This document shows, in pieces, positions 4,151 through 38,615 of a stretch of 38,615 nt of DNA. The number at the start of each line of letters is the position of its first letter. Position 1 is the first letter of the stretch. The notes beneath the pieces were generated by a model. It was not told the origin of the DNA, ran no database searches, and worked only from the letters and a program-made list of their open reading frames with translations. The stretch comes from Actinomycetes bacterium (GTDB taxonomy: Bacteria; Actinomycetota; Thermoleophilia; RBG-16-64-13). A program made the translations under genes and the position numbers. Location: positions 1-38,615 of the forward strand of contig JAJFUK010000194.1 in assembly GCA_021372435.1 (NCBI GenBank). The letters run 5' to 3'.

Positions 4151-4378
4151 CTATGAGCTCGCCCTCCTGCACGAGTTGAAGCATTGACATCCATTGCATG
4201 CGCTGGATAGCTCGTAACACTGTCCGAAGCAGGCTGGGCGTCCACTTTCCTCATGGTGAGTGATGATGGGCTTTACAGTCTGCTCGGGGGCCTTTCTTGG
4301 TACACTTTTGATGCCCCGCTGGCGGTTTATAAACCGTCCGTTCGCTCTGTCCCTCCTCGGCATCCTGCGTTGGGTCAT
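4151..4378 (-). CDS. Small basic Cys-rich protein
   Basis: A 75-aa protein with a strongly basic N-terminal half (MTQRRMPRRDRANGRFINRQ) and a C-terminal cluster CFGQCYELSSACNGCQCFN whose cysteines could bind one or two zinc ions. It starts at an ATGA overlap with the stop of the upstream gene. It is the last gene of the early operon. No function is assigned; composition suggests nucleic-acid binding. Confidence 0.6.
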   Translation of the reverse strand: MTQRRMPRRDRANGRFINRQRGIKSVPRKAPEQTVKPIITHHEESGRPACFGQCYELSSACNGCQCFNSCRRASS

Positions 4379-5632: not shown

Positions 5633-6177
5633 CGCTGCTCGCCATCCTTGGGCTTCCAGTTGGGAAGGAACTTGTAACCCTCGTTGATGTCGTGGCATTC
5701 CCCGCAGTGGAACAGCTTGCCCCGCTCCTCCTTGGCGTTAGCGCAGTTCTCCGCGCTCCGGATCTCCTTTGCCTTCTTGACCCGGTACTGCATCTCGGTC
5801 ATGAACATCTCGATCTTGTCGGCCAGGTCCTTGTCCTCACCTTGGCAGGGGTGGGCGCTGGCCCCGTACCAAATCAGTGTGCGGTTCAGCTCCTGGAGGG
5901 TGAACGGGTGCAGCTCCGGCACGGTATCCTCTCTATCGAACACCATGGCCCCGCTGATGCTGCCGAAGCTGGCGAGGAACTCGGCCAGGGCCTCCAGGAA
6001 GATGCGGTCCCGGCCGGACACCCGGAGCTCGTACTCCTTGGAATGCTCCGGTCCGAATGGCGCCACTGTGATGAGGACCGGTCCGGGAGGTGCGCTGGCG
6101 ATTGCATTGGAGATCTCGCAGAACTGTGCGATGGACACCCCTCCGCCCTGCTGGACGTCAAGAATGAACTCCTTCAT
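5629..6177 (-). CDS. Unknown protein with C-terminal zinc site
   Basis: This protein has 182 aa. Residues 1-90 look alpha/beta (VLITVAPFG, YELRVSGRDRIFLEALAEFL) and the middle is helical. The C-terminal part has C144 in ENCANAKEERG and HCGECHD, likely metal ligands. No family is recognised. It overlaps the zinc-finger gene upstream and the winged-helix gene downstream, both as ATGA, so all three are translated from one message. Confidence 0.65.
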   Translation of the reverse strand: MKEFILDVQQGGGVSIAQFCEISNAIASAPPGPVLITVAPFGPEHSKEYELRVSGRDRIFLEALAEFLASFGSISGAMVFDREDTVPELHPFTLQELNRTLIWYGASAHPCQGEDKDLADKIEMFMTEMQYRVKKAKEIRSAENCANAKEERGKLFHCGECHDINEGYKFLPNWKPKDGEQR

Positions 6178-7748
6178 TGACCCTTCACCTCCACTACCTC
6201 GCGCTCGAAGCGATCGAGCTCCTTCTCCTTGGTCCGCCTGGCTACCTTGATGCGGTCGGCCATGCTCTCTGCAGCTGCTGCACGCCGGCGCAGCTTACGC
6301 TCGAGGCGTTTGAGCTTGGAGATCTCCCGGCCGACGCGGACGCGGTGCCTCCGGACGAGCTCGGCGAAGGGGTCGACCGGCTTGGGACGGACGGTCTTCT
6401 CTGCGATCTCGGTGACGAGGTCGGCGGTCGGGGACCTGGGCAGCGCGATCGTGTTGCAGTCACTGTCGGAGGAAAGATTACCTGCCAAGGTCTCCTTCGG
6501 CCTCCAGCACAAGGGCGGGATAGAGGTCGGAACGCAGTCCTCCTTGGAGTCGATGCAGTGCCCACAGGACACAGCTGGGCGCTGCCAATCACTCCCCGGT
6601 TCAACTGGACCGTTGGGTGGCAGGAGTTCGCTCCCCGGTGGACTCTCGATGTAAACCTCCGCCCCGTCGAGGTGGACGGGCGCGGGGTGGGGTGTGACAT
6701 CGCCATCGTCCGGGTCGATGGTCTCCTTGCGCTCCGGAAGGGCCTCCGGCTCCGGGGTGTGGTCGATCGAGACCTCGGCGAGCTCGCCGGCCGGCTGCTC
6801 GGTAGGTAACTTCGTAGGTAACTCAGTGTACTCCATTTCCTCTTGGACATCTTGGACGGGTTCCACTGCTGGCTCGGTAGCGGGGGATTGGACGGCGTTG
6901 GACTCCTCTCCACCCTCCGCGCCGAAGATCTGCTCGAGACGTGCGTGTATCTCCACCAGGGGCAGCTTATGGAACGCTCGGAGGTGCGCTCTGACGTTGC
7001 TCTTCTCCCTGATCGGCCTCGACTTGCATCCATCGATGGGGCAGGCGATGCGCTCGGCTGTGGCCACCCTCTCCGCCTTTGATGCCAACTTGTTCTTGGC
7101 TTCCTGAGCATGGTCTCGCTTCTGTATCGGGCTCTCGTGCTTGCTCGGCCCCTTGGCCTTCGATTTCTTCGGCTTTTTGGGGAGCTTGGTGCCATTGTCC
7201 ATGTTGCTCCCGGCCGGGGGCTTGGAGATCTCGCCTTGGTCGACCTTCTCCATGTAGCCGGCGAGGCGGTCGGTCTCCGGCTCCTTCTCGTCCTCCGCCT
7301 CCATCTCGGCCTTGAGGTCCTCGAGCGTGGGGGACGGAGGCCTCGGGTACATTCTGTCGAGCATCACGACGCGATCGCGCGGAGGCATGCCTCCATGTGC
7401 GATGTTCAGATGGTTGCCGAGGTTCTCCCTCTGGTTCTTGATCCTGGCCCTGCAGCCCCTCACCGGGCATGCGACACGATCATCATCCCCCGGAGCTGCC
7501 GGTTCCGGCACATCGACCGCGCACCAGTACCACTCGATGCCTTCCTTGCGGAGCTTGATCAGCTTCTTGAACTCCAGCCCGGCGATGATGTTTGAGGTAT
7601 CCGAGACGCTTATCTCTAGGTCCTTTCGCAGACGCTGCGCAGTGATGCCGTCCTCGCCGGCCTCCTTGATCCTCCGGAGGACCTTCTCCTCATTGGTCAT
7701 CTCCCGGCCGGACACGTCGTGGCCGAGGACCTCTGACTCGGCGGTCAT
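6174..7748 (-). CDS. Large winged-helix/C2H2 zinc-finger protein
   Basis: This is the largest early protein (524 aa). Residues 17-77 resemble a winged helix (EEKVLRRIKEAGEDGITAQR, SNIIAGLEFKKLIKL, ending WYWCAV). Two C2H2-like fingers follow: C94, C99, H113, H118 and C236, C241, H255, H260, both of the form aCP..GC, 13 residues, H, 4 residues, H. A Lys-rich linker separates them. A Pro/Glu-rich low-complexity region (about 280-390), a Cys cluster (CGHCIDSKEDC) and a basic coiled-coil C-terminus complete it. The start at 7748 is an ATGA overlap. It is probably DNA-binding; replication initiator or master regulator are both possible. Confidence 0.75.
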   Translation of the reverse strand: MTAESEVLGHDVSGREMTNEEKVLRRIKEAGEDGITAQRLRKDLEISVSDTSNIIAGLEFKKLIKLRKEGIEWYWCAVDVPEPAAPGDDDRVACPVRGCRARIKNQRENLGNHLNIAHGGMPPRDRVVMLDRMYPRPPSPTLEDLKAEMEAEDEKEPETDRLAGYMEKVDQGEISKPPAGSNMDNGTKLPKKPKKSKAKGPSKHESPIQKRDHAQEAKNKLASKAERVATAERIACPIDGCKSRPIREKSNVRAHLRAFHKLPLVEIHARLEQIFGAEGGEESNAVQSPATEPAVEPVQDVQEEMEYTELPTKLPTEQPAGELAEVSIDHTPEPEALPERKETIDPDDGDVTPHPAPVHLDGAEVYIESPPGSELLPPNGPVEPGSDWQRPAVSCGHCIDSKEDCVPTSIPPLCWRPKETLAGNLSSDSDCNTIALPRSPTADLVTEIAEKTVRPKPVDPFAELVRRHRVRVGREISKLKRLERKLRRRAAAAESMADRIKVARRTKEKELDRFEREVVEVKGQ

Positions 7749-7957
7749 AGCTGAACCTCCTCGTAGGTCCGCTCGAAGATCTCCTTGTCGCACGGGTAAC
7801 GCTCTCCGATCACTCCGATGATCAGGTAGTCCCCGGCCTTGCCGCGCATCGTGCCCTCGAGCGTCTGGACCTCGAACGGCTCGCCCATCTGCTTGGCCTG
7901 GACGACGACAGGCCTCTTTCGATAGTGTTTGAACCCCTCGGCCATGGTGTCGATCAC
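7745..7957 (-). CDS. Conserved small phage protein (GDYLIIGVIGERYPC type)
   Basis: A 70-aa protein. The core RPVVVQAKQM ... EGTMRGKAGDYLIIGVIGE, then RYPCDKEIFERTYEEV, matches a widespread small phage protein of unknown function with the pattern PGDY.i.G..GE.YpC....F..tYe. The GTG at 7957 overlaps the upstream stop as GTGA; an ATG at 7945 is an alternative start. The family usually lies in early or accessory operons, as here. Confidence 0.7.
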   Translation of the reverse strand: MIDTMAEGFKHYRKRPVVVQAKQMGEPFEVQTLEGTMRGKAGDYLIIGVIGERYPCDKEIFERTYEEVQL

Positions 7958-9483: not shown

Positions 9484-10449
9484 TTATACCCGGGCCGCCG
9501 ACTGGCTTGGCGTTCCGGGGCGAGTTTCGTTGAGCGAGTTGAGGGCGTCCCTCATGTTCGATGAGTCCACCCCGATGTAGGCGCGGAAGGTCATCCCGCA
9601 GTCCTCGTGTCTCAAGACCTTGGCTATGGTCTCGATCGGCACCCCCCGCTTCCACAGCCGGTTGCCCAGCGTGCGGCGCAGATCGTGCATGGAGAACAGC
9701 ACCCCGACGACCTTGGACAGCTCCACGGTCATCGGATGGTAGTGCTCCCACCGCAGCGGGGCGAGGTACGAGCGCCTCTTGTACTTCACCGGCCGGACCA
9801 CCAGCTTTTGGCACTGATGGTCCTTGGTCTCCTCCACCATCTTGGCGCGGTGACGGAGGTAGCGGAGCAGCGGCTCGCGGACGTAGTCGTTGAAGGTCTG
9901 CAGGGCGACCTTGCCGCCATTGCGTCCCTTCCCCAATATCTCGTCCTCCCCGAAGTCCAGGAAGTTCCTGGCGTTCTCCAGGGTGAGGTTCTCGATGTCC
10001 ACGCACCGCAGGCCCATGTCCACCGCGAGGCAGGTGACGAGCTCCTCGGTCGGTCCCAGTTCGTGGGCCCGCTGATGGAGCTTGGCGACCTGGCGCTCGT
10101 TGAGGAAGATCCCGCCGCGATATGGCGTCGGGTGAGCGTGTATCTTCCACTTCTGGGCCGCCAGGTTCCCGCACCACCGGAGGAAGGCCCGGATGACGTA
10201 GCACTTCACCCCGATGGTTCTCTCCGAGTCCCCTCTGACCGACCCCTCCAGCGTTCTCATCTGTTCGAGGGTTACGGCGTTGGGGTTCGGGAAGCCCAGG
10301 AGCTCGCCCCCTTCCCAGAGCATCGGCTTGTAGCTGATGATCGTGCGGTGTCGCACGACTCCCCGGTCGGAGGGCGGGTTCTTCGGTCGTAAGGAGTTTA
10401 GATATGCTCTCGTCTGATCGTGCCACGCCCCTCTGTGTTTGAAGGGCAT
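9484..10449 (-). CDS. Tyrosine recombinase / integrase
   Basis: A 321-aa site-specific recombinase that would insert and excise viral DNA or resolve multimers. An N-terminal SAM-like arm (about 5-100) includes TLEQMRTLEGS. The catalytic domain shows R148 (MGLRCVDI), a candidate lysine at K174 or K180 (LGKGRNGGK), H255 and R258 in HDLRR, H281 (LRHED) and the nucleophile Y291 (AYIGVD), the complete family set. The ATG at 10449 has GAGGT eight bases upstream. It lies within the early operon beside the palindrome-rich block. The presence of an integrase implies a temperate virus; the attachment site was not identified. Confidence 0.93.
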   Translation of the reverse strand: MPFKHRGAWHDQTRAYLNSLRPKNPPSDRGVVRHRTIISYKPMLWEGGELLGFPNPNAVTLEQMRTLEGSVRGDSERTIGVKCYVIRAFLRWCGNLAAQKWKIHAHPTPYRGGIFLNERQVAKLHQRAHELGPTEELVTCLAVDMGLRCVDIENLTLENARNFLDFGEDEILGKGRNGGKVALQTFNDYVREPLLRYLRHRAKMVEETKDHQCQKLVVRPVKYKRRSYLAPLRWEHYHPMTVELSKVVGVLFSMHDLRRTLGNRLWKRGVPIETIAKVLRHEDCGMTFRAYIGVDSSNMRDALNSLNETRPGTPSQSAARV

Positions 10450-13820: not shown

Positions 13821-13829
13821 TTTATAAAA
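13821..13829 (+). promoter_or_regulatory. TATA box of the plus-strand regulator
   Basis: TTTATAAAA is a near-consensus archaeal TATA element. Transcription about 25 bases further on would start near 13850, downstream of the GTG at 13842 but upstream of the ATG at 13899, which supports the latter as the real start. Confidence 0.6.
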
Positions 13830-15799: not shown

Positions 15800-16564
15800 A
15801 TGGCTCTATCCAAGAAAATGCTAGCGATCGTCGGCGTGCTCGTGATCGTGGTCGTGGTGATTATCGCCGCGGCTGCGCTGGGCGGCGGCAACACCAAGGC
15901 GAACGATAACAACGACAACGACAATGATAACGATAACGACAACGGCGACAACACCAACACCAGGGACCAGATCGCCAACGTGTCGTACTCGGGCAGCGGC
16001 GACAAGGTCTCGGAGAAGTTCGAGCTGCAGGCCGGGGTGACGATCTTCCACATGACTCACTCCGGAAGCTCGAACTTCGCGGTGACACTGTACAACGAGG
16101 CCGGAGAGTACGTTGACCTGTTGGCCAACGAGATCGGCACCTACGACGGCGCAACCCTGATCGGCGTCAAGGCCGACCAGCTGGTGGGCGCGGAGCCCGG
16201 GAAGCACTACTTGCAGATCGAGGCCGATGGCGCTTGGACCATCGTGATCGAGCAGCCCCGTGTGGCGTCCGGAGCAGCCCTTCCGCAGACCCTGACCGGT
16301 AGCGGACCTAACGTCACCATCCCGATCGCTCTGACCTCCGGGGTCGCGGTGTTCAACATGACCCACAGCGGATCGAGCAATTTCATCGTCACGCTCTACG
16401 CCGACGATGGCGACTATGTCGATATCCTCGCCAACGAGATCGGGGCGTACAGCGGGGAGAAGTCCGTCACCGTGAACGGTGGTATCCTGAACGCATCCCC
16501 GGGCATCCACTGGGTCAGCGTCGATGCCGACGGGGACTGGACCATAAAGATCACCAAGATGTGA
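15800..16564 (+). CDS. Membrane-anchored surface protein with two tandem domains
   Basis: A 254-aa protein with a single N-terminal hydrophobic segment (about 8-28) after basic residues, consistent with an anchor or uncleaved signal, then an Asn/Asp linker (about 34-54). Two homologous beta domains follow (about 58-153 and 158-254), marked by FHMTHSGSSNFAVTLY and FNMTHSGSSNFIVTLY and ending in GAWTIVIEQP / GDWTIKITKM. The domain type occurs in many secreted archaeal and bacterial proteins. The ATG is preceded by AGGAGG at the usual spacing. It is a solitary plus-strand gene between operons, the typical setting of a host-modifying moron gene; a role at the host surface, for example in exclusion of other viruses, is inferred. 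Confidence 0.8.
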   Translation: MALSKKMLAIVGVLVIVVVVIIAAAALGGGNTKANDNNDNDNDNDNDNGDNTNTRDQIANVSYSGSGDKVSEKFELQAGVTIFHMTHSGSSNFAVTLYNEAGEYVDLLANEIGTYDGATLIGVKADQLVGAEPGKHYLQIEADGAWTIVIEQPRVASGAALPQTLTGSGPNVTIPIALTSGVAVFNMTHSGSSNFIVTLYADDGDYVDILANEIGAYSGEKSVTVNGGILNASPGIHWVSVDADGDWTIKITKM

Positions 16565-16580: not shown

Positions 16581-16633
16581 ATCTTTCTCTGTAAAGCTCT
16601 CTGTAAAACATCTGTAAAAAGTTTATATAAAAG
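16581..16633 (-). terminator. T-rich intergenic end of the late operon
   Basis: On the minus strand, just past the stop of the last late gene, the sequence carries TTTT, TTTTT and TTTT runs (CTTTTATATAAACTTTTTAC then AGATGTTTTACAG), the pattern that ends archaeal transcripts. The plus strand also has a pyrimidine-rich stretch (CCCCTTTCCATCTTTCTC) after the surface gene. The embedded TTTATATAAA would also score as a TATA box on either strand. Confidence 0.5.
16586..16621. repeat. Three tandem 12-base repeats
   Basis: The units are TCTCTGTAAAGC (16586), TCTCTGTAAAAC (16598) and ATCTGTAAAAAG (16610), each in register. They lie between the ends of two convergent genes and lead into the palindrome TTTATATAAA. 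Confidence 0.75.
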
Positions 16634-16634
16634 A

Positions 16635-17066
16635 TCAGGGGAACGGGATCCCCATGGCCGCGGTCACGACCTTGATGCCGACCACCGCCACCAGCAGGAT
16701 CATGACCACCTTCCCGCCATACTTGATGAGCTCCTTGCGCTCCTCGATGCTGGCCTTGTTATTGCAGGTCACCAGGCCCTGGTAGAACCGGATGGTCTCC
16801 TGCTGGGCCTGACGGTCCTTCTCCCGCTCCTCTGTTTCCTGCTTCCGTTCCTCCTTGCGATCCTCGCGGTCATCCTCGATCGCTTTGACCAAGGAGGCCA
16901 CTGTCGTCTCCGTCCTGGTCTGAGCGATGGCGAGGTCGGCGACCCGGTCCTCGAGGGACTTCTGCCCGTCCTTCTGGCTCCTGACCGCATCGTTTATTCG
17001 GCTATGTTCCGGACAGAACGGGAGGACCGGCAGTTCGTCCATCAGGGGGTCGTGACCTTCCACCAC
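16635..17066 (-). CDS. Coiled-coil membrane protein, lysis-cassette candidate
   Basis: A 143-aa protein. The N-terminal part includes PFCPEHSRIND. A long charged coil follows (KSLEDRVADLAIAQTRTETT to about residue 90, rich in Glu/Arg/Lys), then a C-terminal membrane helix (about 118-138) ending GIPFP. The layout recalls tail-anchored phage proteins near lysis genes. The start is GTG at 17066 with no clear ribosome site; the ATG nine codons later is an alternative. It is the last gene of the late operon, after the GH5-like protein and another membrane protein. A lysis role is inferred from place and topology. Confidence 0.6.
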   Translation of the reverse strand: MVEGHDPLMDELPVLPFCPEHSRINDAVRSQKDGQKSLEDRVADLAIAQTRTETTVASLVKAIEDDREDRKEERKQETEEREKDRQAQQETIRFYQGLVTCNNKASIEERKELIKYGGKVVMILLVAVVGIKVVTAAMGIPFP

Positions 17067-17074
17067 TTACCACG

Positions 17075-17398
17075 TCACCCCTTCACTCCCTTGATCAGGG
17101 CCACGAGCTCCTGATACGCAGCGTCGGCCTTGTCGATGCAGTTGGTGACCTCCTCGGGGCTCAGGGTGTCGTCGACCAGTGCCTCATCGGCAGCGGCAAC
17201 GAAATCCTTGAAGGCTTTGAAGGCCGGGAGCAACGGCTCCGGGACCTTGCCCTCAATACTGTCCATCTTCTTGTGCAGCCTAGAGAGCCTGATCTTAAGC
17301 CAGGCATAGGTCTTCGGTGCCTTCTGCACAACGATCGCGGTCCCGATCACGATGGCGGCCACGAGGGCCGCGAACTGGTATTCGTTCAGCTCTATCAT
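17075..17398 (-). CDS. Small membrane protein, holin candidate
   Basis: A 107-aa protein with one membrane helix near the N-terminus (AALVAAIVIGTAIVV, about 10-25), then a basic stretch (WLKIRLSRLHKKM) and a soluble helical tail (PAFKAFKDFVAAADEALVDD; CIDKADAAYQELVALIKG). Type III-like holins and phage minor membrane proteins can look like this. GAGG lies before the ATG and the gap to the GH5-like gene is only four bases, so co-translation is likely. Holin identity rests on context. Confidence 0.6.
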   Translation of the reverse strand: MIELNEYQFAALVAAIVIGTAIVVQKAPKTYAWLKIRLSRLHKKMDSIEGKVPEPLLPAFKAFKDFVAAADEALVDDTLSPEEVTNCIDKADAAYQELVALIKGVKG

Positions 17399-17402
17399 CT
17401 CT

Positions 17403-18854
17403 TCACCTCTTCGTTATCTTACCCCATAGTCCGAGGATCCACTCGACCACCCTCCAGAACACGAACCCCCGCCCGATGTGAGTCTCCGGCTCCGGAACCG
17501 TCTCCGGCGACGGGTTCGAGGGCCTCTCATCTTCCTCCTCGGGCTCGCTCGCTGCCGGCGGGTCCGGCTCGCTAGGAGCCTCATTAGCGGGCTCCTCGGC
17601 CTCGGGTGTCTCCTCCCCTGCCTCGCCGTCCTCCGGCTCCTCCACGGCCGGCTGCTCGCCCTCGGAGGGCTGCTCGGTGCGTTCCTCCTCAGTGGTCTCC
17701 TGCGTCGGAGAGGAGGAATCACTAGGCTCGGGTACCGGATCTGCCACCGGCGCTGGCGTCTCAACAGGGGTTTCTACCGGCGCAGGAGATGGAGTAGGGA
17801 GCGAGGTCAGGGGGAACCCTGACCGTGGAGCGAGGCGCATGGCGCAGCTGTCAAGCCCGAGCTCAAGGAAGGCGTCCTCCACGTCCTTGACGTACCAGGC
17901 CGCCGAGGTTCTCAGGTCCCCGTACTCGCCGACCAACCCGGTCACGCCACGAGCATTGCAGTAGGCGGCGAACGAGGCGGCCATGTCGCTCTTGAAGTCG
18001 GCCTTCTTTGCCCCGAACCAGTAGATGTGAGCGCTCGGGATCTTCTGGTAGTCGTTCGGACGCTTGAGGAACGCGCGATCGCCACGTACGAAGTCCCAAC
18101 CGTCGACCACGTGGTACTGATTGACCGCGTCCCAGTGGTACGCGGTCACGCAGAACATCGCCCCGATGAGCGCGTGGCCCATAATGACCGGAGGAGCTCC
18201 GTCGCCCGCTACTGCAGTAGAGCCATCAATGGCGCTCTCGACGAAGGCGCAGTAGGCATCGAGCCGCTTCCGGTACCCGACCATGGTGTCGGTCACCTTT
18301 CCGGAAGCGTCCTTGGCGACCTCCTCCGGATAGAGCCTGTGCCAGTAGTCGTAGGCGATGAGGTCGTGGTCAGTCTCGTTGCCCCACTCGATCGCATACA
18401 CCCCGGCATGGCCCTTGAAGTGCTTGGCCACCGATCCGACGTAGGTGTTGGCATCGTGGTGCTGCTGCGAGCTCGTGTCCCACAGCGGTTCGTTCTCCTT
18501 GTGATACGAGCCGTCGGCGAACCCCAGGCAGGTGAAGATGATCTGCATGCCCTCCGCGAGAGCAGCATCGGCCCAGTTGTCAAGGATACCATAGAACTTC
18601 TCCGAGTCCATCTTCCAGGCGTCCCACTGAGCGTTGCCGCTCCACCAGTCCCCCGCACCGATGCGCACCAGCTGGAGGCCGAGCTGTCGGAGGGCGGCCA
18701 TGACGTACCGCGCTAGGTCCTTGTGCGAGCCGACCTGTAGGAAGGTTGTTGGGTCCTGCATGACCGAGCCGGGGATCAAGCGGTTCTTGCCCAGCTGCCC
18801 CTCGAGCTCCCAGGTAATGACACACTGATCATTGCCCCCGCGCCGTGCCGTCAT
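17403..18854 (-). CDS. GH5-like glycosidase with C-terminal membrane helix
   Basis: This 483-aa protein is predicted to cut a glycan of the host envelope. Residues 1-345 look like a clan-A TIM barrel: ALRQLGLQLVRIGAGDWW early, then YAIEWGNETD with the proposed acid/base E160 and GLVGEYGD with the proposed nucleophile E310, both in the GH5/GH39-like positions and 150 residues apart. A Pro/Glu/Ser-rich linker (about 350-455) follows, and the protein ends in an aromatic hydrophobic helix (FVFWRVVEWILGLWGKITKR). No signal peptide is seen. The ATGA overlap at 18854 sets the start. Small membrane genes flank it, so it may be the lysin or a tail-associated depolymerase. The substrate is unknown. Confidence 0.75.
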   Translation of the reverse strand: MTARRGGNDQCVITWELEGQLGKNRLIPGSVMQDPTTFLQVGSHKDLARYVMAALRQLGLQLVRIGAGDWWSGNAQWDAWKMDSEKFYGILDNWADAALAEGMQIIFTCLGFADGSYHKENEPLWDTSSQQHHDANTYVGSVAKHFKGHAGVYAIEWGNETDHDLIAYDYWHRLYPEEVAKDASGKVTDTMVGYRKRLDAYCAFVESAIDGSTAVAGDGAPPVIMGHALIGAMFCVTAYHWDAVNQYHVVDGWDFVRGDRAFLKRPNDYQKIPSAHIYWFGAKKADFKSDMAASFAAYCNARGVTGLVGEYGDLRTSAAWYVKDVEDAFLELGLDSCAMRLAPRSGFPLTSLPTPSPAPVETPVETPAPVADPVPEPSDSSSPTQETTEEERTEQPSEGEQPAVEEPEDGEAGEETPEAEEPANEAPSEPDPPAASEPEEEDERPSNPSPETVPEPETHIGRGFVFWRVVEWILGLWGKITKR

Positions 18855-19006
18855 GCGTTCAGCCCCTTGAACTTGACGGACTCCTCGGTCGGTCGGAACC
18901 TCGAGTGCGCGTGGCATCCGGGGCACTCCGGGTGCTCGGCGTCCTGGCAATAGTAGCAGCGCGGCGGTACGCCCCCTTCCTCGAGGATCACGAGCTCCTC
19001 GCTCAC
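18851..19006 (-). CDS. Small zinc-ribbon protein in the lysis cassette
   Basis: A 51-aa protein. RCYYCQDAEHPECPGCHAHS supplies CxxC ... CxxC ligands for one zinc. The proposed GTG start overlaps the upstream stop as GTGA; another GTG at 18991 has GAGGAG upstream. Its stop overlaps the ATG of the GH5-like gene. Zinc ribbons are common in the early genes but this is the only one in the late operon. The function is unknown. Confidence 0.6.
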   Translation of the reverse strand: MSEELVILEEGGVPPRCYYCQDAEHPECPGCHAHSRFRPTEESVKFKGLNA

Positions 19007-19140
19007 GGGCACCACCACGCGCAGATGTTGATGACCGTCAGGGCGGTCGCCAGCGCTCCTATCGCGATCCCCGCGTATGCCCACGCGATGCTGCACAGCT
19101 TGTCCAGCTTCGTTTCCTTGGTGTCGTTGTCGTCTGTCAT
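19003..19140 (-). CDS. Small single-helix membrane protein
   Basis: A 45-aa protein with a charged N-terminus (MTDDNDTKETKLDKLCS) and one membrane helix (about 17-38, AWAYAGIAIGALATALTVIN), ending CAWWCP. GGAGG lies five bases before the ATG and overlaps the stop region of the beta-propeller gene, giving strong support for translation. It stands directly before the zinc ribbon and GH5-like genes and is a second holin or antiholin candidate. Confidence 0.65.
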   Translation of the reverse strand: MTDDNDTKETKLDKLCSIAWAYAGIAIGALATALTVINICAWWCP

Positions 19141-19148
19141 GTCGCCTC

Positions 19149-20276
19149 CTAGATGATCATGATGCCCCCGCAGGCGATGCCACCGCTCGGCCCCACCCCT
19201 CCAGCGCTTGCGGTCAGCGATTCGATGCGGATGTTGTCCAGTGTGTACGGGCTGCCGCCCGACAGGTAGAAGAAAAGCACCGAGTCGTTCTGCGCCCGGT
19301 TAAGCCCGACCGTCTGGTAGCTGTTGGGCAGCGCGGACTCGGTCGCAGCGTCGACCACCGAGCTCCAGCTGGAGGTCAGGGCGGTGTACTTTACGTAGTA
19401 AACGTGGGTGCTGGACGGGAACGACTGCCAGGCGATGAAGGCGTCACCGGTGTCCTTGTTGATCGACACCGCAGGCAGGTCGTCGTAGCTGCAGTTGTCC
19501 TCGATCTCGACGGCCGTCCCCCAGCTGCTACCGTTCCAAGTTCGGCGGTAGATGTTGAACAGGTTGTCCTGCGCGTTCCAGGCCAGGTGCACCACGTCGC
19601 CGAAGGCCCTCGCGTCAAACCTCTGGGTCGCCGAGCAGATGATCGAGGAAGCCTGCACCCGCGACCCGAGCGCCGATCCGTCCCAGACCTTGCTGAAGAT
19701 GTGCCCGCCGGTGACGGTACAGTACAGCGCCATCCACTTGCTGCCGCTCAGGGCGACCGCCTTGATCATGGTGTTGACCGAGTCCTGGTCCGAGTCGCTC
19801 ACGGTCATCGGGTACCCGGAGACCACGGACCAGGTGCCGTTGGTGTTCACCAGCCGCGTCACCTTGGCCTTGTTCGTGTCGTAATAGGCGACCAGCAAGC
19901 TGCCGTCGTCCATCATGTCGATCGATGTCACGCGCATCTGCGTGCCCGTTGCTACGGTCACCTCGGTCTCCCAGGAGATCGAGCCTCCGGAGCACACTCC
20001 CCGGCGGATCTTGATGGGGTTACTGTCCGGCGTGCAGCTCGCCAAGTAACAGTAGATGTCGTCGAACAGCGCCTGGAAGTACGAGCCGTCGGAGCCGGCC
20101 TTGACGGTGACCTCCGAGCCGAAGTTGCTCGGGTCGCAGGTCGGGTGGTCGTTCGGAGCGAAGACGATGTTCGTGCCGTTCGACCACATGAGGTACCAGT
20201 AACTGGCCGCGAAGCCGGCCTTCGAGCCCGTGCCGAGGTGCAGCGCCGAGCTGTTGGTCGTAGTTCGGGACGCCAT
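19149..20276 (-). CDS. Beta-propeller tail-tip / fibre protein
   Basis: This 375-aa protein consists of repeated beta blades with aromatic/Gly-rich turns (YWYLMWSNGTNIVFAPND; VAYYDTNKAKVTRLVNTNGT; VHLAWNAQDNLFNIYRRTWN; AFIAWQSFPSSTHVYYVKYT). This pattern is typical of sialidase-like propellers used in receptor binding. The C-terminus is Gly-rich (SAGGVGPSGGIACGGIMII). It resembles the N-terminal domain of the 29803-32562 fibre, so the virus carries two propellers. The start ATG lies two bases after the preceding stop with GGAG upstream. Host recognition is inferred. Confidence 0.7.
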   Translation of the reverse strand: MASRTTTNSSALHLGTGSKAGFAASYWYLMWSNGTNIVFAPNDHPTCDPSNFGSEVTVKAGSDGSYFQALFDDIYCYLASCTPDSNPIKIRRGVCSGGSISWETEVTVATGTQMRVTSIDMMDDGSLLVAYYDTNKAKVTRLVNTNGTWSVVSGYPMTVSDSDQDSVNTMIKAVALSGSKWMALYCTVTGGHIFSKVWDGSALGSRVQASSIICSATQRFDARAFGDVVHLAWNAQDNLFNIYRRTWNGSSWGTAVEIEDNCSYDDLPAVSINKDTGDAFIAWQSFPSSTHVYYVKYTALTSSWSSVVDAATESALPNSYQTVGLNRAQNDSVLFFYLSGGSPYTLDNIRIESLTASAGGVGPSGGIACGGIMII

Positions 20277-20278
20277 GC

Positions 20279-20938
20279 TCAGTCTCCGTAGGCGGTGTTG
20301 AACTCGAGCTTGATCCCGAGCAGCAAAGCGTCCACGGCCAGGGTGCCCTGCTTGCGGTACGCCTGGAAGACGAGGAGCTCACCGCCCGCCGGCGTCCCGG
20401 CCGGAGTGATCGTGCCCGACGGCCCCTTGTGCACCTTGTTGGCCACGAGGAAGGTGTCCGTGACCTCGGCCGCGGTCCCGAACGCCTGGTCCATGCTTTC
20501 GTTGTCATCGATCGACCGAGCCTGGAGGCCCCACACTACGGTTCCGCTCCCGGACGCGGCGGTCCAGTACGGAATGAAGGTGATGTCCCCTCCGTCCCAG
20601 CCTTCGGGCATGGCGTAGCTGAACTGCACGTACTCCTGGGTCGAGGGGTCGAACGGCAGGCCGACCCGCATGATCTTGTTGGTGCTGAGTTCTAGTTTGG
20701 TGGCCGGCCCGCAGCCGTTCGTGGTCCGAGGATCTCCGCCCTTGGCGCTCAGGTAGGCGGAGGCCTTCCTGGTAGGCAGCCTCGCCGCGGCGATCGTGTC
20801 CGTGAGCGCGGTCGCCTTCACCGGGATGGTCCCGGCGGCCATGTCGGCCACCACCGCGTCGTATTGCTCCTCGGCATGGTTAATCTGGGACGCGTCCCCG
20901 GGCGTTCCGTTCGTCAAGTTTTGCTTTGTGAAACTCAC
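20279..20938 (-). CDS. Tail fibre protein with jelly-roll-like domain
   Basis: A 219-aa protein. The N-terminal FTKQNLTNGTPGDASQINHA resembles the attachment segment of phage fibres. The C-terminal 130 residues carry ITFIPYWTAASGSGTVVWGL and DTFLVANKV ... GELLVFQAYRKQGTLAVDAL, a pattern shared by many phage fibre jelly-roll domains. The GTG start abuts the upstream stop. It stands between the second hub protein and the beta-propeller, consistent with a receptor-binding tip module. Confidence 0.65.
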   Translation of the reverse strand: MSFTKQNLTNGTPGDASQINHAEEQYDAVVADMAAGTIPVKATALTDTIAAARLPTRKASAYLSAKGGDPRTTNGCGPATKLELSTNKIMRVGLPFDPSTQEYVQFSYAMPEGWDGGDITFIPYWTAASGSGTVVWGLQARSIDDNESMDQAFGTAAEVTDTFLVANKVHKGPSGTITPAGTPAGGELLVFQAYRKQGTLAVDALLLGIKLEFNTAYGD

Positions 20939-21784
20939 CTAACCACTCTCCCATCTCAGCTGGACCACAACCTGCGCTCCCTTGCCCACCTCGATCGCGA
21001 ACGGCCCCGGTTGGACCAGACCGCGGGCGAACAGCGCCGGCACGCTCAAAGGCGAGCTGCCGGAGGCCACGTCGAAGTACACCCCGCCCTCGGCCAGCAC
21101 AAGGTCGTTGTACTGGTCCGGAGGGAGCGTGAAGAACAGCGTGAGCTCGCCGTCCGCCACCGACGAGCTCGCCACCGCGATCGGCGTCATCGTCCACGGG
21201 TCCGCGAGGCCGGTGTCGGCGATGCTCTCCGGAGCGGTCCCCCGGCCGCACATGAGACTGGCGATGCGGATGGTGAAGTCCCCTGTGCTGGCAGCGAGCG
21301 CCGCCATCATGTTGCAGGCGAGCCTCGAGTTCGTGCCCCCGAACACCACGTCGAACTGGAACACGTACCGGAACTCGGAGGTCTTCTCGAGGGGGTCAAT
21401 GACCACCCTGGCGAACGCCCCCGGACCGGTCGGCGGGGCGTCGGCGGACATCGAGATCCACACCTCGCGGATGGTCGAGCCGTTGAGCTCGTCCTCCATG
21501 ATCTGCTGCGTGGTCCGGAGCCTCGCCCCCTTGGCCGAGCGATTGGTGGCCTGGGAGATCATGAGCGGCGAGAGCCCCCAGGTCTGCGAGGCGCTGACGG
21601 CCGTGCCCGAGGACCCCAAGCCGATGTACGAGAGGTGGAACGCCTCGCCTCTCATGGCGTCCCGGAGCTGGTTCAGCCCCCGGGTGAGCACGGCGTTGTG
21701 CGCCTCCCTCACGAGCCGGCCGCGCCCATGGGCGTCGATGCGGAACACCTTGAGGTTGCAGTACACGCGCCCTCGAGCGTTCAC
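20939..21784 (-). CDS. Tail-tip protein with YIGLGSSGTA domain
   Basis: A 281-aa protein, beta-rich. The segment HNAVLTRGLNQLRDAM ... LSYIGLGSSGTAVSASQTWG resembles the core of the 32687-33280 protein (NMALDVGLQNLGDLM ... PYIGVGDSSTAEAAAQTALQ), so the two share a domain common in phage structural proteins. Later strands include FRYVFQFDVVFGGTNSRLA. It overlaps the hub gene by ATGA. It is probably part of the baseplate-like tip. Confidence 0.65.
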   Translation of the reverse strand: MNARGRVYCNLKVFRIDAHGRGRLVREAHNAVLTRGLNQLRDAMRGEAFHLSYIGLGSSGTAVSASQTWGLSPLMISQATNRSAKGARLRTTQQIMEDELNGSTIREVWISMSADAPPTGPGAFARVVIDPLEKTSEFRYVFQFDVVFGGTNSRLACNMMAALAASTGDFTIRIASLMCGRGTAPESIADTGLADPWTMTPIAVASSSVADGELTLFFTLPPDQYNDLVLAEGGVYFDVASGSSPLSVPALFARGLVQPGPFAIEVGKGAQVVVQLRWESG

Positions 21785-23184
21785 CAGAACGCATCACCTC
21801 CTCCCCAGATGCTCGTCCCCCAGATCCACTGCGGCCTGGAGATGACGGAGAACTGGTGGGACATGAGGACGGTGGCCTCGATCGCACCTGCCTGAGCGAT
21901 GGTCTCGTCCGGACGCACCTCGTACGACGAGCGCGCGGTCAGCAGGCGGTAGAACTCCACCCAGTCCTCGCGCCTCTCCCCGGAGACGCCCTCGACGGCG
22001 TACTCCAGGCTGCAGTCCGCGTCCGTCCGCTCCTCGGCGTCCACCGAGGTGATCAGGATGTCGGTGTCGAGATTGTCGTACGCGGACTGCTGCACGCGGA
22101 TGATCATGCCCGCTCTAAGTCCGGGAGCGTAGGTGCGGAAGGAGGCGTTCACCTTCTCAAAGGGGTTCTGCCTCATTTCGGTCTCGGCGCCGGAGATGGC
22201 GGCGTCCAGGCGCTGTACCGCGGCGTTCTCCACCAGCCGCTCGAACCGGCCGTGCTGCGCGATCGACTCCTTGTCCTCGAGCATCACCATGATCGGCGTC
22301 AGGCCGACGTAGGTCACGGTGAGCGTGTCGCTCGAGGTGAGCAGCGTCGCAGTGCTGTCCTGCCGCAGGATCTTCTCCTTGTCGTTCTTGTTCCAGTACC
22401 ACTGCTTGCCGCTCTCGATGCCGTAGATGCCCACGGTCTGCGCGACGCCGTTGACCTTGACGGTCGGCTCCTGGTACATCTTGTACCGCACGGCGAACTC
22501 CCGCCTGGCCCCGTCTCCGGCGTAGGACTCGGTGCGCTCGTCGGTGATGCCGTTGGCGCTGCCGCGGTAATACACCACGTTGCAGCCCACGTCGGCGTCC
22601 TCGACCGAGAGCTCGATGTAGTCGGGGTTCGCGTCAGTGATGTTCCACGGCGCGGTGTAAGACTCCCTGGAGAGGTAGTGCAGCCGCTTGGCGTCGTCGA
22701 TGATCCAGACGAATCCATCGAAGTCGGCCGCCTCGGTCAACGCCTCGGAGGGCTTCTGCCCGTTGAACCTGACCTCGCCGGTCGAGCCACCGTCCTCGAT
22801 GTCCCCGGCGGTCACCCCGAACTCCGCCAGGTAGTGGGTGATGATCCACCGCACGAGCTCGCCGCGGTTGGCCACCTCCGGCGAGGCGTACATGCGGCGC
22901 CGATCGGCGAGCGCCGAGAAGTCTACGACGCGGAGCGTCCACTCCATGATGTCGCTGCCCGGGATGATCTTGCGGCGGGGCTTGAGGAGCTCACCCCCGA
23001 AGACGGTCTTGCCGACCTCGGTGTCGTAGAAGTAGACCTCGTCGTACTGGTGCGGACGGTAGCCAGTATCACTCTGCAGCACGAGGCTGCCCGTCGTCCT
23101 GACGCCGATGGTGGAGCTGAGCCGCACGGAGCCGGGCACGGTCATGCCGTCCACGTTCTCGCCGTCGATGGTGATGGAGTACAT
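21781..23184 (-). CDS. Tail hub / tail-associated protein
   Basis: A 467-aa protein lying directly after the tape measure gene, the usual place for hub proteins. It begins with a beta domain (MYSITIDGENVDGMTVPGSV). A helix with RRRMYASPEVANRGELVRWI and an alpha/beta core (NGQKPSEALTEAADFDGFVW; AKRLHYLSRESY) resemble gp27/gpD-like hub domains. Near the end lie PGLRAGMIIRVQQSAYDNLD and ITSVDAEERTD. The start is chosen because the ATG shares a base with the tape-measure stop (TGATG). An upstream in-frame stretch inside the tape measure gene was discarded. Confidence 0.72.
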   Translation of the reverse strand: MYSITIDGENVDGMTVPGSVRLSSTIGVRTTGSLVLQSDTGYRPHQYDEVYFYDTEVGKTVFGGELLKPRRKIIPGSDIMEWTLRVVDFSALADRRRMYASPEVANRGELVRWIITHYLAEFGVTAGDIEDGGSTGEVRFNGQKPSEALTEAADFDGFVWIIDDAKRLHYLSRESYTAPWNITDANPDYIELSVEDADVGCNVVYYRGSANGITDERTESYAGDGARREFAVRYKMYQEPTVKVNGVAQTVGIYGIESGKQWYWNKNDKEKILRQDSTATLLTSSDTLTVTYVGLTPIMVMLEDKESIAQHGRFERLVENAAVQRLDAAISGAETEMRQNPFEKVNASFRTYAPGLRAGMIIRVQQSAYDNLDTDILITSVDAEERTDADCSLEYAVEGVSGERREDWVEFYRLLTARSSYEVRPDETIAQAGAIEATVLMSHQFSVISRPQWIWGTSIWGGGDAFW

Positions 23185-26060
23185 CAGCCGAACCCCATCA
23201 GCTTCAGTTCGCTCGCAAACTCCTTCACGAAGGCCCGAGGGTTGTTGGTTTGCTTCATCTGCAGCACCAGCTGCCCGATGGAGAACGACCGCGTGGTGCG
23301 GCTGTTGGAGATCCCGGGCACCATGTCCCCGAGGCTCGAGGCCAGCGAGCCGATGCCGACCGAGCCCAGCATGTTCGCGGCCCCGGCCGAGGAGAACGCC
23401 TGGGAGCGGAGGTCGAGGATCTTCTGCATGATGTCGTCCGGGATAAGCCACTCCGGGCCGGCCTCGCCGAACACGCCCAGGGTCGGCTTGTCCACGTACC
23501 CGCCCTTGGCGAACAGGTGGAGCCCGGGGATCACGTCCCCCTGGGGAACGAGGCCGCCGATGAACTCCGAGACCAGGTTGGCGGCCTTCTGGGCGATCTG
23601 CCCCGGGGCGGCGATCAGGCCGTTGACGAAGGAAGTGATCCACTCCCCGGCCTTGCTCAGGAGGTCGGTGACCCCCTTGGCGATCCCGTCGATGAAGTTG
23701 GAGACCCACTCCCCGGCCTTGATGATCAGGTCCCCGGCTCCGGGGATGATGCCGTTGATGAAGTTACCGACCCACTGCGTGGCCTGCGCTATCAGCTGTC
23801 CGGGCCCCTGAGCGATCATGTTGACGAAGTTGGAGATCCACTGCACCGCCTGGTTGATCAGCTGCCCCGGCCCGGCCGCTATGCCGTTGATGAAGTTCGA
23901 GACCCATTGGATGGCGCCGTCGATCAGCTGCCCGACGCCGTTCGCCAGGCCGCCCACGAAGCCGACCACCCACTGTATCGCGGAGTCGACGATCTGCCCG
24001 GCCGCGCCCACCAGGCCGGCGCCGAAGTTCACGATGGCCTGCCCGATGGCGCTGAGGGCCTGCCAGATGAGGCTGCCGAGGGTGACCGCCAGCTGGACCC
24101 AGTCGATCGAGGCCAGCGCCCCGATGACCATCCTGGGGATGGCCATGCCGATGTTCGCCAGCCCCTGCAGAACCGCGAACCAGTCGATGTTGACGAAGAA
24201 GTTGGCGATGCCCATGAGCAGGCCGGCCAGCCCCTCGAGTATGGTCACCCCGATGCCGATCCAGTCGATGTGCCCGATGAAGTAGGCGATGTCCGCCCCG
24301 ACCTGGTCCCAGTTGATGTTGGCGATCCAGGTGATGACGCCGTTCAGGAGGTCGGCCGCGGCGGCGCCGGCGTCCATGAACGCCTTGATCCAGTCGATCT
24401 TCTCGAACCAGTCGATGATCCCGTTGATGACCTTGAGCGTGGCGTTGGCCGAGTCCATGAACGCCTGCTGCCAGTCGATGCTGCCGAACCACTCCCCGAG
24501 GGCGTCGATGACGTCCCCGCCGAAGGTGGCCAGCTTCGTCAGCAGCGCGTCCCAGTCGATCGAGCCGATGGCCTGTCCGATCTGGTCCCCGATGCCGCCG
24601 AGGAACTGGGCAACGCCGTTCACATCCTGAGCCATGGCGTCGACATCGAAGTCGCGCATGGCCGCCCATGCGCCCACGCCGGCGACAGCGGCGACCGGAG
24701 CGGCGACAGCTGCTGCAGTGCCGAGCCCCACCCCGCCGAGGAGGCCGCCGGCGCCGGCAGCCGCTCCTCCGCCGCCGAGGAGGCTCATGAGCCCGCCCCC
24801 GCCGCCGAGCATCCCGGTGATCGAACCGAGGCCGGAGACCATCGGGCCGAGGGCCATCAGCGCCGGGCCGGCCGCCGCGGCGATGCCGGCGAGCGCGATC
24901 GCCATGTCCTGCATCCCCGATGGCATGTTCTCGAACGCGTCGAAGAGGGGGATGACGACGTTGTCCAGCAGCCTCGTCAGCGGGGGCAGCAGCTTCTCGC
25001 CGATGCTGATCCCGAGGTCCAGGAGCTTGTCCTTGAAGATCTTGAACTTCCCCGCGGCGCTGTTGGCCATGACGTCCGCGGCCTCTTGCGCGGCGCCCTC
25101 GGAGTCCTTCATGTTCTGGACGAGGGTCTGGAAGTCGTCGTCGCTTGCGGCGATGACGCTCATCATCGGGCCCATGGCCTCGACGGTGAAGATCTTGGAC
25201 GCGTCCGCGGCGTCGATATTGGCGTCGTGCAGGTTCTGCAGGGCGCCCTGCAGGCCCACCACCTGGGGGTTGACGTCGTCGGCGGTGAGGCCGTACTTGG
25301 ACAGCGCGCGGCTGGACTCCGCCGTCGGCTTGACGAGGTTCACCAGGCCCATGCGCAGGGCGGCGCCGGCGGTCGAGGCCTCGTACCCGGCTCGGCTCAT
25401 GACGTCGAGCGCAGCCGCCGTCTCCTCGAGCGGGATGTCCATCTGCGAGGCCGTCGCGGCGACGTAGGACATCGCGGTGTTGAACTCCTCCGCGCTCCAC
25501 AGCGAGTTCTGGAAGGCCGCGGTGAGGATGTCGGTGACGCGCCGAGACTCTGAGGCCTCGATGTTGTATGCCTTCATCAGGCCCTGCAGGACCTGGGCCG
25601 TCTCGCTGAGGTCCGACCCGGAGGCGGCGGCGAGGTCCATGGCGCCGGCAAGGTAGTCCTGAATGTCCGCCGCGGTGCTGGTCGAGTCGGCGAGCCAGTA
25701 CATGGCGTCGGCGACCTGCGTGGCGCTGAAGGTGGAGCCGTCGGCCATCTCCCTCGCGGCGTCGCCCATGTTCGAGATCTCGTCGGCGGTCATGCCGGTG
25801 ACCGAGCGGATCTTCGAGAGCGCGGTGTCGAAGTCCGCGGCGGCCTTGACCGCCAGGCCGAAGGTGGCGACCACCGGCAGCGTCACGCCGGCCGTCAGCG
25901 ACTTGCCGATCGAGGACATCGAGGACCCGAGGCCCTTGAGCTTGGTGGAGAGGGTGCTCTGGGCCTTGTCCACCTCCTTCTGCACCCTGACCATCCCGGA
26001 CTCGAAGTCCGAGGTGTCCGCCGTCACGTTGACGTTGATCTCACCTAGATTTCCGGCCAT
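23184..26060 (-). CDS. Tape measure protein
   Basis: A 958-aa protein that sets tail length and is threaded in the tube before DNA ejection. The N-terminal part matches TP901-type tape measures: coil (VRVQKEVDKAQSTLSTKLKG), SSIGKSLTAGVTLPVVATFG, DFDTALSKIRSVTGMTADEI, LSETAQVLQGLMKAYNI, and LLPPLTRLLDNVVIPL. A Gly/Ala hydrophobic region (about 390-470) follows. Two repeat arrays come next: units with IDW at about 33-35 residues, then seven units of 22 residues. The end includes FAKGGYVDKPTLGVFGEAGP. At the usual 0.15 nm per residue the tail would be about 140 nm. It overlaps the GT product end by 20 bases. Confidence 0.93.
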   Translation of the reverse strand: MAGNLGEINVNVTADTSDFESGMVRVQKEVDKAQSTLSTKLKGLGSSMSSIGKSLTAGVTLPVVATFGLAVKAAADFDTALSKIRSVTGMTADEISNMGDAAREMADGSTFSATQVADAMYWLADSTSTAADIQDYLAGAMDLAAASGSDLSETAQVLQGLMKAYNIEASESRRVTDILTAAFQNSLWSAEEFNTAMSYVAATASQMDIPLEETAAALDVMSRAGYEASTAGAALRMGLVNLVKPTAESSRALSKYGLTADDVNPQVVGLQGALQNLHDANIDAADASKIFTVEAMGPMMSVIAASDDDFQTLVQNMKDSEGAAQEAADVMANSAAGKFKIFKDKLLDLGISIGEKLLPPLTRLLDNVVIPLFDAFENMPSGMQDMAIALAGIAAAAGPALMALGPMVSGLGSITGMLGGGGGLMSLLGGGGAAAGAGGLLGGVGLGTAAAVAAPVAAVAGVGAWAAMRDFDVDAMAQDVNGVAQFLGGIGDQIGQAIGSIDWDALLTKLATFGGDVIDALGEWFGSIDWQQAFMDSANATLKVINGIIDWFEKIDWIKAFMDAGAAAADLLNGVITWIANINWDQVGADIAYFIGHIDWIGIGVTILEGLAGLLMGIANFFVNIDWFAVLQGLANIGMAIPRMVIGALASIDWVQLAVTLGSLIWQALSAIGQAIVNFGAGLVGAAGQIVDSAIQWVVGFVGGLANGVGQLIDGAIQWVSNFINGIAAGPGQLINQAVQWISNFVNMIAQGPGQLIAQATQWVGNFINGIIPGAGDLIIKAGEWVSNFIDGIAKGVTDLLSKAGEWITSFVNGLIAAPGQIAQKAANLVSEFIGGLVPQGDVIPGLHLFAKGGYVDKPTLGVFGEAGPEWLIPDDIMQKILDLRSQAFSSAGAANMLGSVGIGSLASSLGDMVPGISNSRTTRSFSIGQLVLQMKQTNNPRAFVKEFASELKLMGFG
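23538..23999 (-). repeat. Seven 22-residue repeats in the tape measure gene
   Basis: Seven units of 66 bases encode GQLIxxAxQWVxNFINGIAxGP-like repeats. Trp and Phe recur at fixed positions, as in repeat regions of other siphovirus tape measures. Adding or losing units would change tail length in steps of 22 residues. Confidence 0.8.
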
Positions 26061-29066: not shown

Positions 29067-29806
29067 CTGCGCCGCCTCGAGTAATTGGGGATCTCAGATC
29101 CATCGAGCTCAAGCTCGGGCATGTCGGCGTCGGAGCGATCGACGATGGGGTCGACCTCGCTGACCTCGTCCTCGAGCAGCTTCTCCAGCTCCGCCTCGTA
29201 CTCCTGCAGGAAGGCGGAGGTCCCGCTCGGCTTCCCGTAGGAGTAGTCGCCGAGCTTCTCCGAGGTCATCACCGTCCCGCCCCGGGAGACCTCGAACAGG
29301 TGCAGGATGGTCAGCAGGTGCATGTGCTCGTAGGTCTCCTGGGCAACCCCCTCCGGGAGGTCGGCGTCCAGGTACACCCTCTTCGCCCTCGAGGCAAGGT
29401 AGTTGAACCGGGCGGTGGTGAACTTCGAGCCGAGCTCGTCGCTCACCCGGTACTTGGACATGAAGGGGACCATGGCGGCCAAACCGGTGACCTCCTGGGG
29501 CACGGGCGGGTCCACATGGAGCGTGCCCTCGGCGATGACATAGAGGTCGGTCTCGGTGGTGGCCTCGACCTCGAACTCATAGTCTCCGCTGAGGCCTAGT
29601 GTATCGGTCGGCCCGAGGGTCAGCCGCACGCTGTTCGAGGTAGCGGGATCGCCCACCACCGGGCAGGCCCTGCTCAGCTTCAGCTGCCCGCCCTGGTAGG
29701 CCTTGAAGGTGATCGTAATGCCCACCAGGTCGTCCACTCCGCTCACGGGTATGCTCACCGGGAGGGATTCCCCCGCCCGGATCTCAAGGTACTGGTCGTC
29801 TGTCAT
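29063..29806 (-). CDS. Beta-sandwich domain fused to head-tail connector
   Basis: A 247-aa protein. Residues 1-105 form an Ig-like or BppU-N-like sandwich (YLEIRAGESLPVSIPVSGVD; ITITFKAYQGGQLKLSRACP; GDYEFEVEATTETDLYVIAE). Residues 110-215 resemble gp6-type connectors (FMSKYRVSDELGSKFTTARF; EHMHLLTILHLFEVSRGGTV; MTSEKLGDYSYGKPSGTSAF). An acidic tail ends in SRRRR. The connector part suits the position before head closure. The fused sandwich is unusual and may decorate the neck. It starts at an ATGA overlap with the fibre gene. Confidence 0.65.
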   Translation of the reverse strand: MTDDQYLEIRAGESLPVSIPVSGVDDLVGITITFKAYQGGQLKLSRACPVVGDPATSNSVRLTLGPTDTLGLSGDYEFEVEATTETDLYVIAEGTLHVDPPVPQEVTGLAAMVPFMSKYRVSDELGSKFTTARFNYLASRAKRVYLDADLPEGVAQETYEHMHLLTILHLFEVSRGGTVMTSEKLGDYSYGKPSGTSAFLQEYEAELEKLLEDEVSEVDPIVDRSDADMPELELDGSEIPNYSRRRR

Positions 29807-33287: not shown

Positions 33288-34169
33288 TCAGATGGCCGTC
33301 AGCTGGATGAATGCGTCCGCATGCTTGACCCGGGGGAAGAGGGACTCCCACACGCGGCCGTACAGGGGGGAGGTGTTGGGGTGCCTGCTGTCGATGCCCG
33401 GATCGTTCTGGGCGTCCGCGCCGATCACCAGGTCGAAGTAGGTACCAGCGTTGTCCACGGGGACCATCAGGCCGCTACCGGAGACTATCCTGGTAGACTG
33501 GAACACCGAGCCGGGGTAAGCCCCGGGGACGGGGTTCAGCAGCCGCATGACCTTCTCCATCTCATCGTACCCATCCTGCTGTGAGGAGTCGAGCTCGCCG
33601 TACTGATCGGGGTTCAGGACGAGGTTGAAGTTCACCCCGTTGACGTTCTTGTTCCAGAGCTTGGCCCTCGCCCCGGCCACCGCGTCCTTGGCGTTGCCGA
33701 AGGTGGCGAAGTCCTTACTGGTGGTGTACTGCTGCCCGGCCGCCTGGAACAGCCCCTTGATGGCATACACGCCATCGTCCTTGGGGACCCATCCCTGGAT
33801 CAGGAGCTCGTCCTCCTTGAGGGCGAGCATGTGGCCGGCGCTCAGCATGGCGGAGGTCTCCAGATCCACGCCCTGGGTGGCGAAGGCCTCGAAGTCGCTC
33901 CTTTTGGTCTCGAAGTCCTTCCACAGGAACGGCAGGCGGAAGTTCTCCCTGGTGATGTTGATGGCATCCCGGGAGCCTTCCTCGGACGGCATGCCGAAGG
34001 CGATCTGCGCCTCGTTCATGTCGCTCATCCGATCGACGTCCACGTTGAACTTTCCCTTCGGAAGCCAGGTCACCTTCTGGAACAGCCTCCGGTTGACGGT
34101 CGCCTGCCTCATCGGTTCGATGAGCTCGCGGTTGTAGTAGTTCGCTGCCCTCTCTAGTGCAGATGCCAT
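33288..34169 (-). CDS. Major capsid protein (HK97 fold, encapsulin-like)
   Basis: A 293-aa protein. It starts with a helix (ALERAANYYNRELIEPMRQA), then VNRRLFQKVTWLPKGKFNVD. The body has LPFLWKDFETKRSDFEAFAT, a long helical stretch (ETSAMLSAGHMLALKEDELL), AGARAKLWNKNVNGVNFNLV and MEKVMRLLNPVPGAYPGSVF, ending in beta strands (YFDLVIGADAQNDPG). Layout and motifs fit the encapsulin/Linocin-M18 branch of HK97 capsid proteins. It lacks a long N-terminal delta domain, and a separate scaffold is fused to the protease upstream. The ATG overlaps the previous stop (TAATG). Confidence 0.85.
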   Translation of the reverse strand: MASALERAANYYNRELIEPMRQATVNRRLFQKVTWLPKGKFNVDVDRMSDMNEAQIAFGMPSEEGSRDAINITRENFRLPFLWKDFETKRSDFEAFATQGVDLETSAMLSAGHMLALKEDELLIQGWVPKDDGVYAIKGLFQAAGQQYTTSKDFATFGNAKDAVAGARAKLWNKNVNGVNFNLVLNPDQYGELDSSQQDGYDEMEKVMRLLNPVPGAYPGSVFQSTRIVSGSGLMVPVDNAGTYFDLVIGADAQNDPGIDSRHPNTSPLYGRVWESLFPRVKHADAFIQLTAI

Positions 34170-38548: not shown

Positions 38549-38615
38549 CCCAGCAGAGTATCTCCGTTCCCGCTAATGTGCCTTTCTGTGCCATTTCTAT
38601 CCTAGAAGGGAAGGC
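38475..38615. repeat. Terminal direct repeat, right copy
   Basis: Identical to bases 1-141. It contains the portal start, the terL-portal gap and the last bases of terL. See the left copy for interpretation. Confidence 0.95.

Follow-up and report, generated by a model that had tools for sequence, protein, structure and literature searches.

The window analysed in this study (38,615 nt) is the whole of one contig of a 2.8-Mb MAG. Owing to 141 identical bases at its two ends, the contig closes to a circle, and it is a complete circular virus genome of 38,474 bp that was binned into a bacterial MAG. The exact 17403-18854 frame given in a preliminary description of this DNA was found on the minus strand, encoding a putative glycosidase of 483 aa (hereafter P0001). 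The following features lie at the ends of the contig, within the P0001 gene and around it:

1-141 and 38475-38615: terminal direct repeat, 141 identical bases
16635-17066, minus strand: 143-aa protein with a coiled-coil-like middle and a C-terminal membrane segment, XhlA-like in layout only
17075-17398, minus strand: 107-aa protein with an N-terminal membrane segment and a helical domain, holin-like in layout only
17403-18854, minus strand: P0001, putative GH5-like (clan GH-A) protein of 483 aa, single open frame
17826-18854, minus strand: predicted catalytic domain, residues 1-343 of P0001, placed by alignment with GH5 active-site columns
18375-18377, minus strand: codon of E160, candidate acid/base, on a catalytic column of the GH5 alignment
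17925-17927, minus strand: codon of E310, candidate nucleophile, on a catalytic column of the GH5 alignment
17490-17825, minus strand: acidic Pro/Glu stalk, residues 344-455 of P0001, recognised by composition
17406-17477, minus strand: predicted C-terminal amphipathic Trp-rich helix with a basic end, residues 460-483 of P0001
18851-19012, minus strand: 53-aa Cys-rich (zinc-ribbon-like) protein, overlapping the P0001 start by 4 bases
19003-19140, minus strand: holin-sized protein of 45 aa, for which a single membrane segment is predicted
19149-26060, minus strand: genes of the P0001 operon directly upstream, namely the tape measure (23184-26060) followed by four distal tail genes, gaps of -4 to +2

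The late operon runs from the tape measure through the four distal tail genes to the 45-aa, 53-aa, P0001, 107-aa and 143-aa genes, in that order, and is tightly packed over its whole length (intergenic gaps of -10 to +8 bases). The P0001 gene starts with an ATG at 18854, overlapping the preceding gene's stop by 4 bases, and ends with a TGA that belongs to the ribosome-binding site (GAGGTGA) of the gene that follows. P0001 is indeed surrounded by small membrane genes, as had been proposed, with membrane-type proteins of 45, 107 and 143 aa flanking it; the 107-aa and 143-aa proteins matched no family, family searches returned no holin match for the flanking small proteins, and the scanned gene products of the virus showed no further lysin-like domain.

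Sampled contigs of the MAG look bacterial when read by eye. The 4-mer correlation of the window with MAG contigs was 0.56-0.63, compared to 0.64-0.80 for MAG contigs among themselves, and this atypical usage, together with head genes pointing to archaea, ruled out MAG membership as evidence of the host. Two further features bear on the affinity of the virus:

33288-35065, minus strand: encapsulin-like major capsid protein (MCP; 33288-34169) and the preceding head protein, nearest relatives in Halobacteriota genomes
9484-10449, minus strand: tyrosine integrase, matched best in NCBIfam by archaeal XerA, with a score below the cut-off of that family

Among the matches listed, the MCP was nearer to encapsulins (Linocin_M18, E = 5e-18) than to phage head families. 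It was encoded in 15 of 393 Halobacteriota genomes, in 13 of them at E ≤ 6e-27 and with 26-35% identity over at least 260 residues, while the 118 bacterial relatives of the MAG yielded a single weak match. The head protein beside it was 49.7% identical to its counterpart in one MCP-carrying Halobacteriota genome; a search for this neighbour in the order of Methanoculleus found nothing. TerL was an exception, the phage matches listed for it being bacterial only. We also observed six matches to TTTAWAWA (three sites at 13821-13828, 16622-16631 and 4326-4333, both strands) against 0.09 expected; the motif resembles an archaeal TATA box, yet one of the sites sits between convergent gene ends. Together with GGTGA-type ribosome sites, these motifs fit archaea weakly. 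Since its head proteins match Halobacteriota proviruses, the virus is most likely a mis-binned archaeal tailed virus, in agreement with the preliminary description.

Searches of P0001 against Pfam, PHROGs, NCBIfam and PDB sequences gave no significant match. PF00150 was not matched at any reported E-value, and the sole PDB lead, the GH5 mannanase 8d89 (E = 0.3, not significant), produced an alignment that stops at the common GNE. We therefore built a GH5 profile from bacterial GH5 (PF00150) proteins gathered from 119 genomes, and it was by this home-made profile only, not by Pfam, NCBIfam or PHROGs, that the GH5 likeness of P0001 was detected. The P0001 domain scored 26.9 bits with the first build and 13-15 bits with three curated builds, against maxima of 7.1 bits (random) and 11.0 bits (local) in thousands of shuffled controls, and hhalign P values versus the GH5 profiles ranged from 1.5e-6 to 1.3e-5. 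In the first build, a single alignment covers residues 45-318, with E160 on the acid/base column and E310 on that of the nucleophile. The curated builds align firmly only up to E160, so support for the second half of the domain is weaker.

Identity of P0001 to GH5/PF00150 proteins of bacterial genomes and viral contigs was roughly 15-25%. The two glutamates named in the preliminary description were found in the contexts IEWGNETD (E160) and GLVGEYGD (E310), 150 residues apart, both on catalytic columns. In a six-sequence alignment of P0001 with five bacterial GH5 proteins, R64, N159, E160, H276, Y278 and E310 were invariant. N159-E160 supplies the Asn-Glu pair expected where strand 4 finishes (in one AF2 model a strand ends at residue 159), E310 pairs with the strand-7 Glu in every GH5 row, and the H-x-Y of strand 6 (H276, Y278) and the strand-2 Arg (R64) are both present. 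The classical GH5 residues of CelC are R46, H90, N139, E140, H198, Y200, E280 and W313, and the invariant positions of P0001 presumably correspond to six of these eight by CelC numbering. The same alignment revealed that the strand-3 His is absent (TCL replaces the DLH-type motif), as is the strand-8 Trp (AMRL replaces the W strand). The last barrel helix (helix 8) is also missing, strand 8 running straight into the linker. As a consequence of the loss of two classical residues and the last helix, activity or a subsite may be altered. A frameshift at the border between domain and linker was considered and rejected, as neither of the other frames, read by eye, gives the strand-8 Trp in context.

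Structure prediction with AF2 gave a pLDDT of 44 for P0001 without an alignment, and a pLDDT of 41 (pTM 0.44) when one viral-contig GH5 sequence (25% identity to P0001) was supplied; both are low-confidence models and neither is usable as such. Top Foldseek matches of the alignment-free model were mainly GH164, GH140 and GH5 chains, and across the models GH164/GH5 chains led the matches at TM-scores of 0.35 or lower. The search with the alignment-free model is independent of the GH5 profile, which is not the case for the second model, given a GH5 sequence at the outset, and we treat the fold matches of both as supporting evidence only. Because no confident 3-D model was obtained and TM-scores were so low, we can only infer that E160 and E310 share one cleft. 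Nevertheless, the profile scores above the shuffles and the Foldseek result for the alignment-free model agree, which supports the earlier assignment of P0001 to clan GH-A as a GH5-like protein, as judged from sequence comparison and modelling.

The Pro/Glu linker proposed to follow the domain corresponds to residues 344-455, of which 26 of 112 are Pro (23%) and 28 are Glu (25%). The end of the protein, residues 460-483 (IGRGFVFWRVVEWILGLWGKITKR), had been described as a C-terminal membrane helix and tail anchor, a description that the data do not bear out as worded. Rather than the hydrophobic uncharged helix of about 18-20 residues that characterises a tail anchor, this segment reaches a peak hydropathy of only 1.06, has a hydrophobic moment of 0.45-0.6 and carries R468 and E471 inside the helix. 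By these predicted properties it is an amphipathic Trp-rich helix, not a classical transmembrane anchor, and it could either lie along a membrane surface or bind to a partner protein. No signal peptide was visible at the N-terminus.

No homologue of P0001 was detected by tblastn in phages or plasmids, by pattern scans in IMG/VR and GTDB genomes, or in 99 relatives of the MAG, 396 genomes of its phylum, 44 methanogens and 393 Halobacteriota genomes (best E = 0.002 over 71 residues in the latter). The GH5-based alignment was too degenerate to use for scanning, and of 34 IMG/VR stretches retrieved by an EWGNET codon-pattern scan, none was GH-like. The archaeal proviruses examined (Halobacteriota; L186, L172 and L184) finish their tail module without a glycosidase, small membrane proteins taking its place at the tail-module end of G861 (L184/L185).

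We tentatively read P0001 as a retaining glycosidase of clan GH-A, nearest to GH5, that serves as a glycan-cutting lysin of an archaeal tailed virus; the function we infer from position only. What favours a lysin is the late position, the membrane-type neighbours, the absence of further lysin-like domains from the scanned gene products and the missing signal peptide. As its gene shares an operon with the tail genes, P0001 would be made late and, having no signal peptide, would remain cytoplasmic, with its Trp-rich C-terminal helix docking on the inner face of the membrane. At the end of infection, at least one of the three small membrane proteins might open the membrane. The barrel, on its long acidic stalk, could then reach the envelope and cut a beta-linked glycan, such as an S-layer glycan or an outer polysaccharide like methanochondroitin, with E160 acting as acid/base and E310 as nucleophile. 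Several observations weigh against a lysin: P0001 lacks the last barrel helix and two of the eight classical active-site residues, both AF2 models are of low confidence, the terminal helix is no normal transmembrane anchor, and no holin family was matched by the small proteins at its flanks. Furthermore, most archaea have no polysaccharide wall, and the gene is absent from the archaeal proviruses examined, so lysis in that group would be independent of it. The more elaborate proposal of a non-peptidase lysis route, in which the acidic stalk and amphipathic helix hold a glycosidase-type lysin for an archaeal envelope glycan at the membrane and its own holin-like partners free it, we consider doubtful.

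The main rival to the lysin reading, albeit a somewhat unlikely one, is a tail-borne depolymerase. P0001 would then be a part of the virion, with its C-terminal helix fixing it to the tail tip, and would cut a host surface glycan at attachment and entry. Its gene stands directly behind four distal tail genes of the same operon, an absent signal peptide is expected of a virion protein, and a BFVD search shows GH5/endoglucanase annotations in other tailed phages; however, P0001 matches none of the tail protein families by sequence, the long acidic stalk and Trp-rich helix are atypical of a tail-fibre layout, and the genes after it are membrane-type rather than further tail genes.

An auxiliary or host-remodelling GH5 enzyme, altering environmental or host surface polysaccharide with no role in lysis or entry, appears improbable, given that P0001 has no signal peptide for secretion and is encoded within the tail operon with 4-base overlaps, not at a cargo site. 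On the other hand, the gene looks accessory because related archaeal proviruses do not have it, and there is a precedent in a GH5 endomannanase of proven activity from a soil tailed-virus contig, described as an auxiliary gene for plant polymers (PMC6786970). Least probable of all is that P0001 has ceased to be catalytic and that its GH-A barrel now binds glycans or serves a structural purpose. This would fit the loss of helix 8 and of the His and Trp on strands 3 and 8, but P0001 keeps both catalytic Glu, the adjacent Asn, the strand-2 Arg and the HxY pair, and a catalytic set retained in so diverged a sequence suggests selection for catalysis.

Under the lysin reading, P0001 resembles the enzymes of phage holin-endolysin cassettes as a late candidate enzyme without a signal peptide that adjoins small membrane proteins; in contrast to these cassettes, its locus has no detected holin or endolysin family, and the target would not be peptidoglycan. 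PeiW and PeiP of psiM2 and psiM100 are pseudomurein endoisopeptidases, that is, peptidases, and are limited to pseudomurein hosts. They are wall-degrading enzymes of archaeal tailed viruses, as proposed for P0001, but their chemistry, going by its description in the literature, is unrelated. Compared to GH5 (PF00150, clan GH-A), P0001 has the same strand order by alignment and the R, N-E, H-x-Y and E active-site positions, while it falls below Pfam, NCBIfam and PHROGs detection, lacks helix 8 and the His and Trp of strands 3 and 8, respectively, and possesses an acidic stalk and a Trp-rich C-terminal helix. It shares with the soil virus endomannanase (PMC6786970) the presence of a GH5-type enzyme in a tailed virus, whereas the P0001 gene is embedded in the tail operon of a virus of archaeal type.

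GH5-type enzymes are already known in tailed viruses (BFVD annotations; PMC6786970). New here are the combination of a GH5-like enzyme with an archaeal-type virus, the stalk and helix architecture, and a sequence that is an orphan across the collections searched. How tailed viruses open most archaeal hosts is not known. A review from 2015 stated that S-layer-degrading enzymes were not known (PMC4456609), and of the 129 archaeal dsDNA viruses covered by a survey from 2025, only 10.9% had lytic proteins (PMC12596118). We found no archaeal viral glycosidase lysin in the literature searched, which left most subscription papers outside. With P0001 as a candidate whose two catalytic residues can be named, the lysis question becomes testable through the expression of a single protein.

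Three other genes of this virus genome deserve mention. Between the head and tail genes, a 919-aa protein (29803-32562) with no phage-record match combines an N-terminal beta-rich domain with many repeats of about 30 residues each ('..DAxxxxKAlxxxE..'). On the plus strand, opposite to the late operon, 15800-16564 encodes a protein, either secreted or anchored in the membrane, that combines an Asp/Asn-rich stalk with a duplicated beta domain and may be a surface (exclusion-type) protein. Finally, a 539-aa protein (6174-7793), a possible regulator, begins with a winged-helix-like region and contains two zinc-finger motifs of the C2H2 type.
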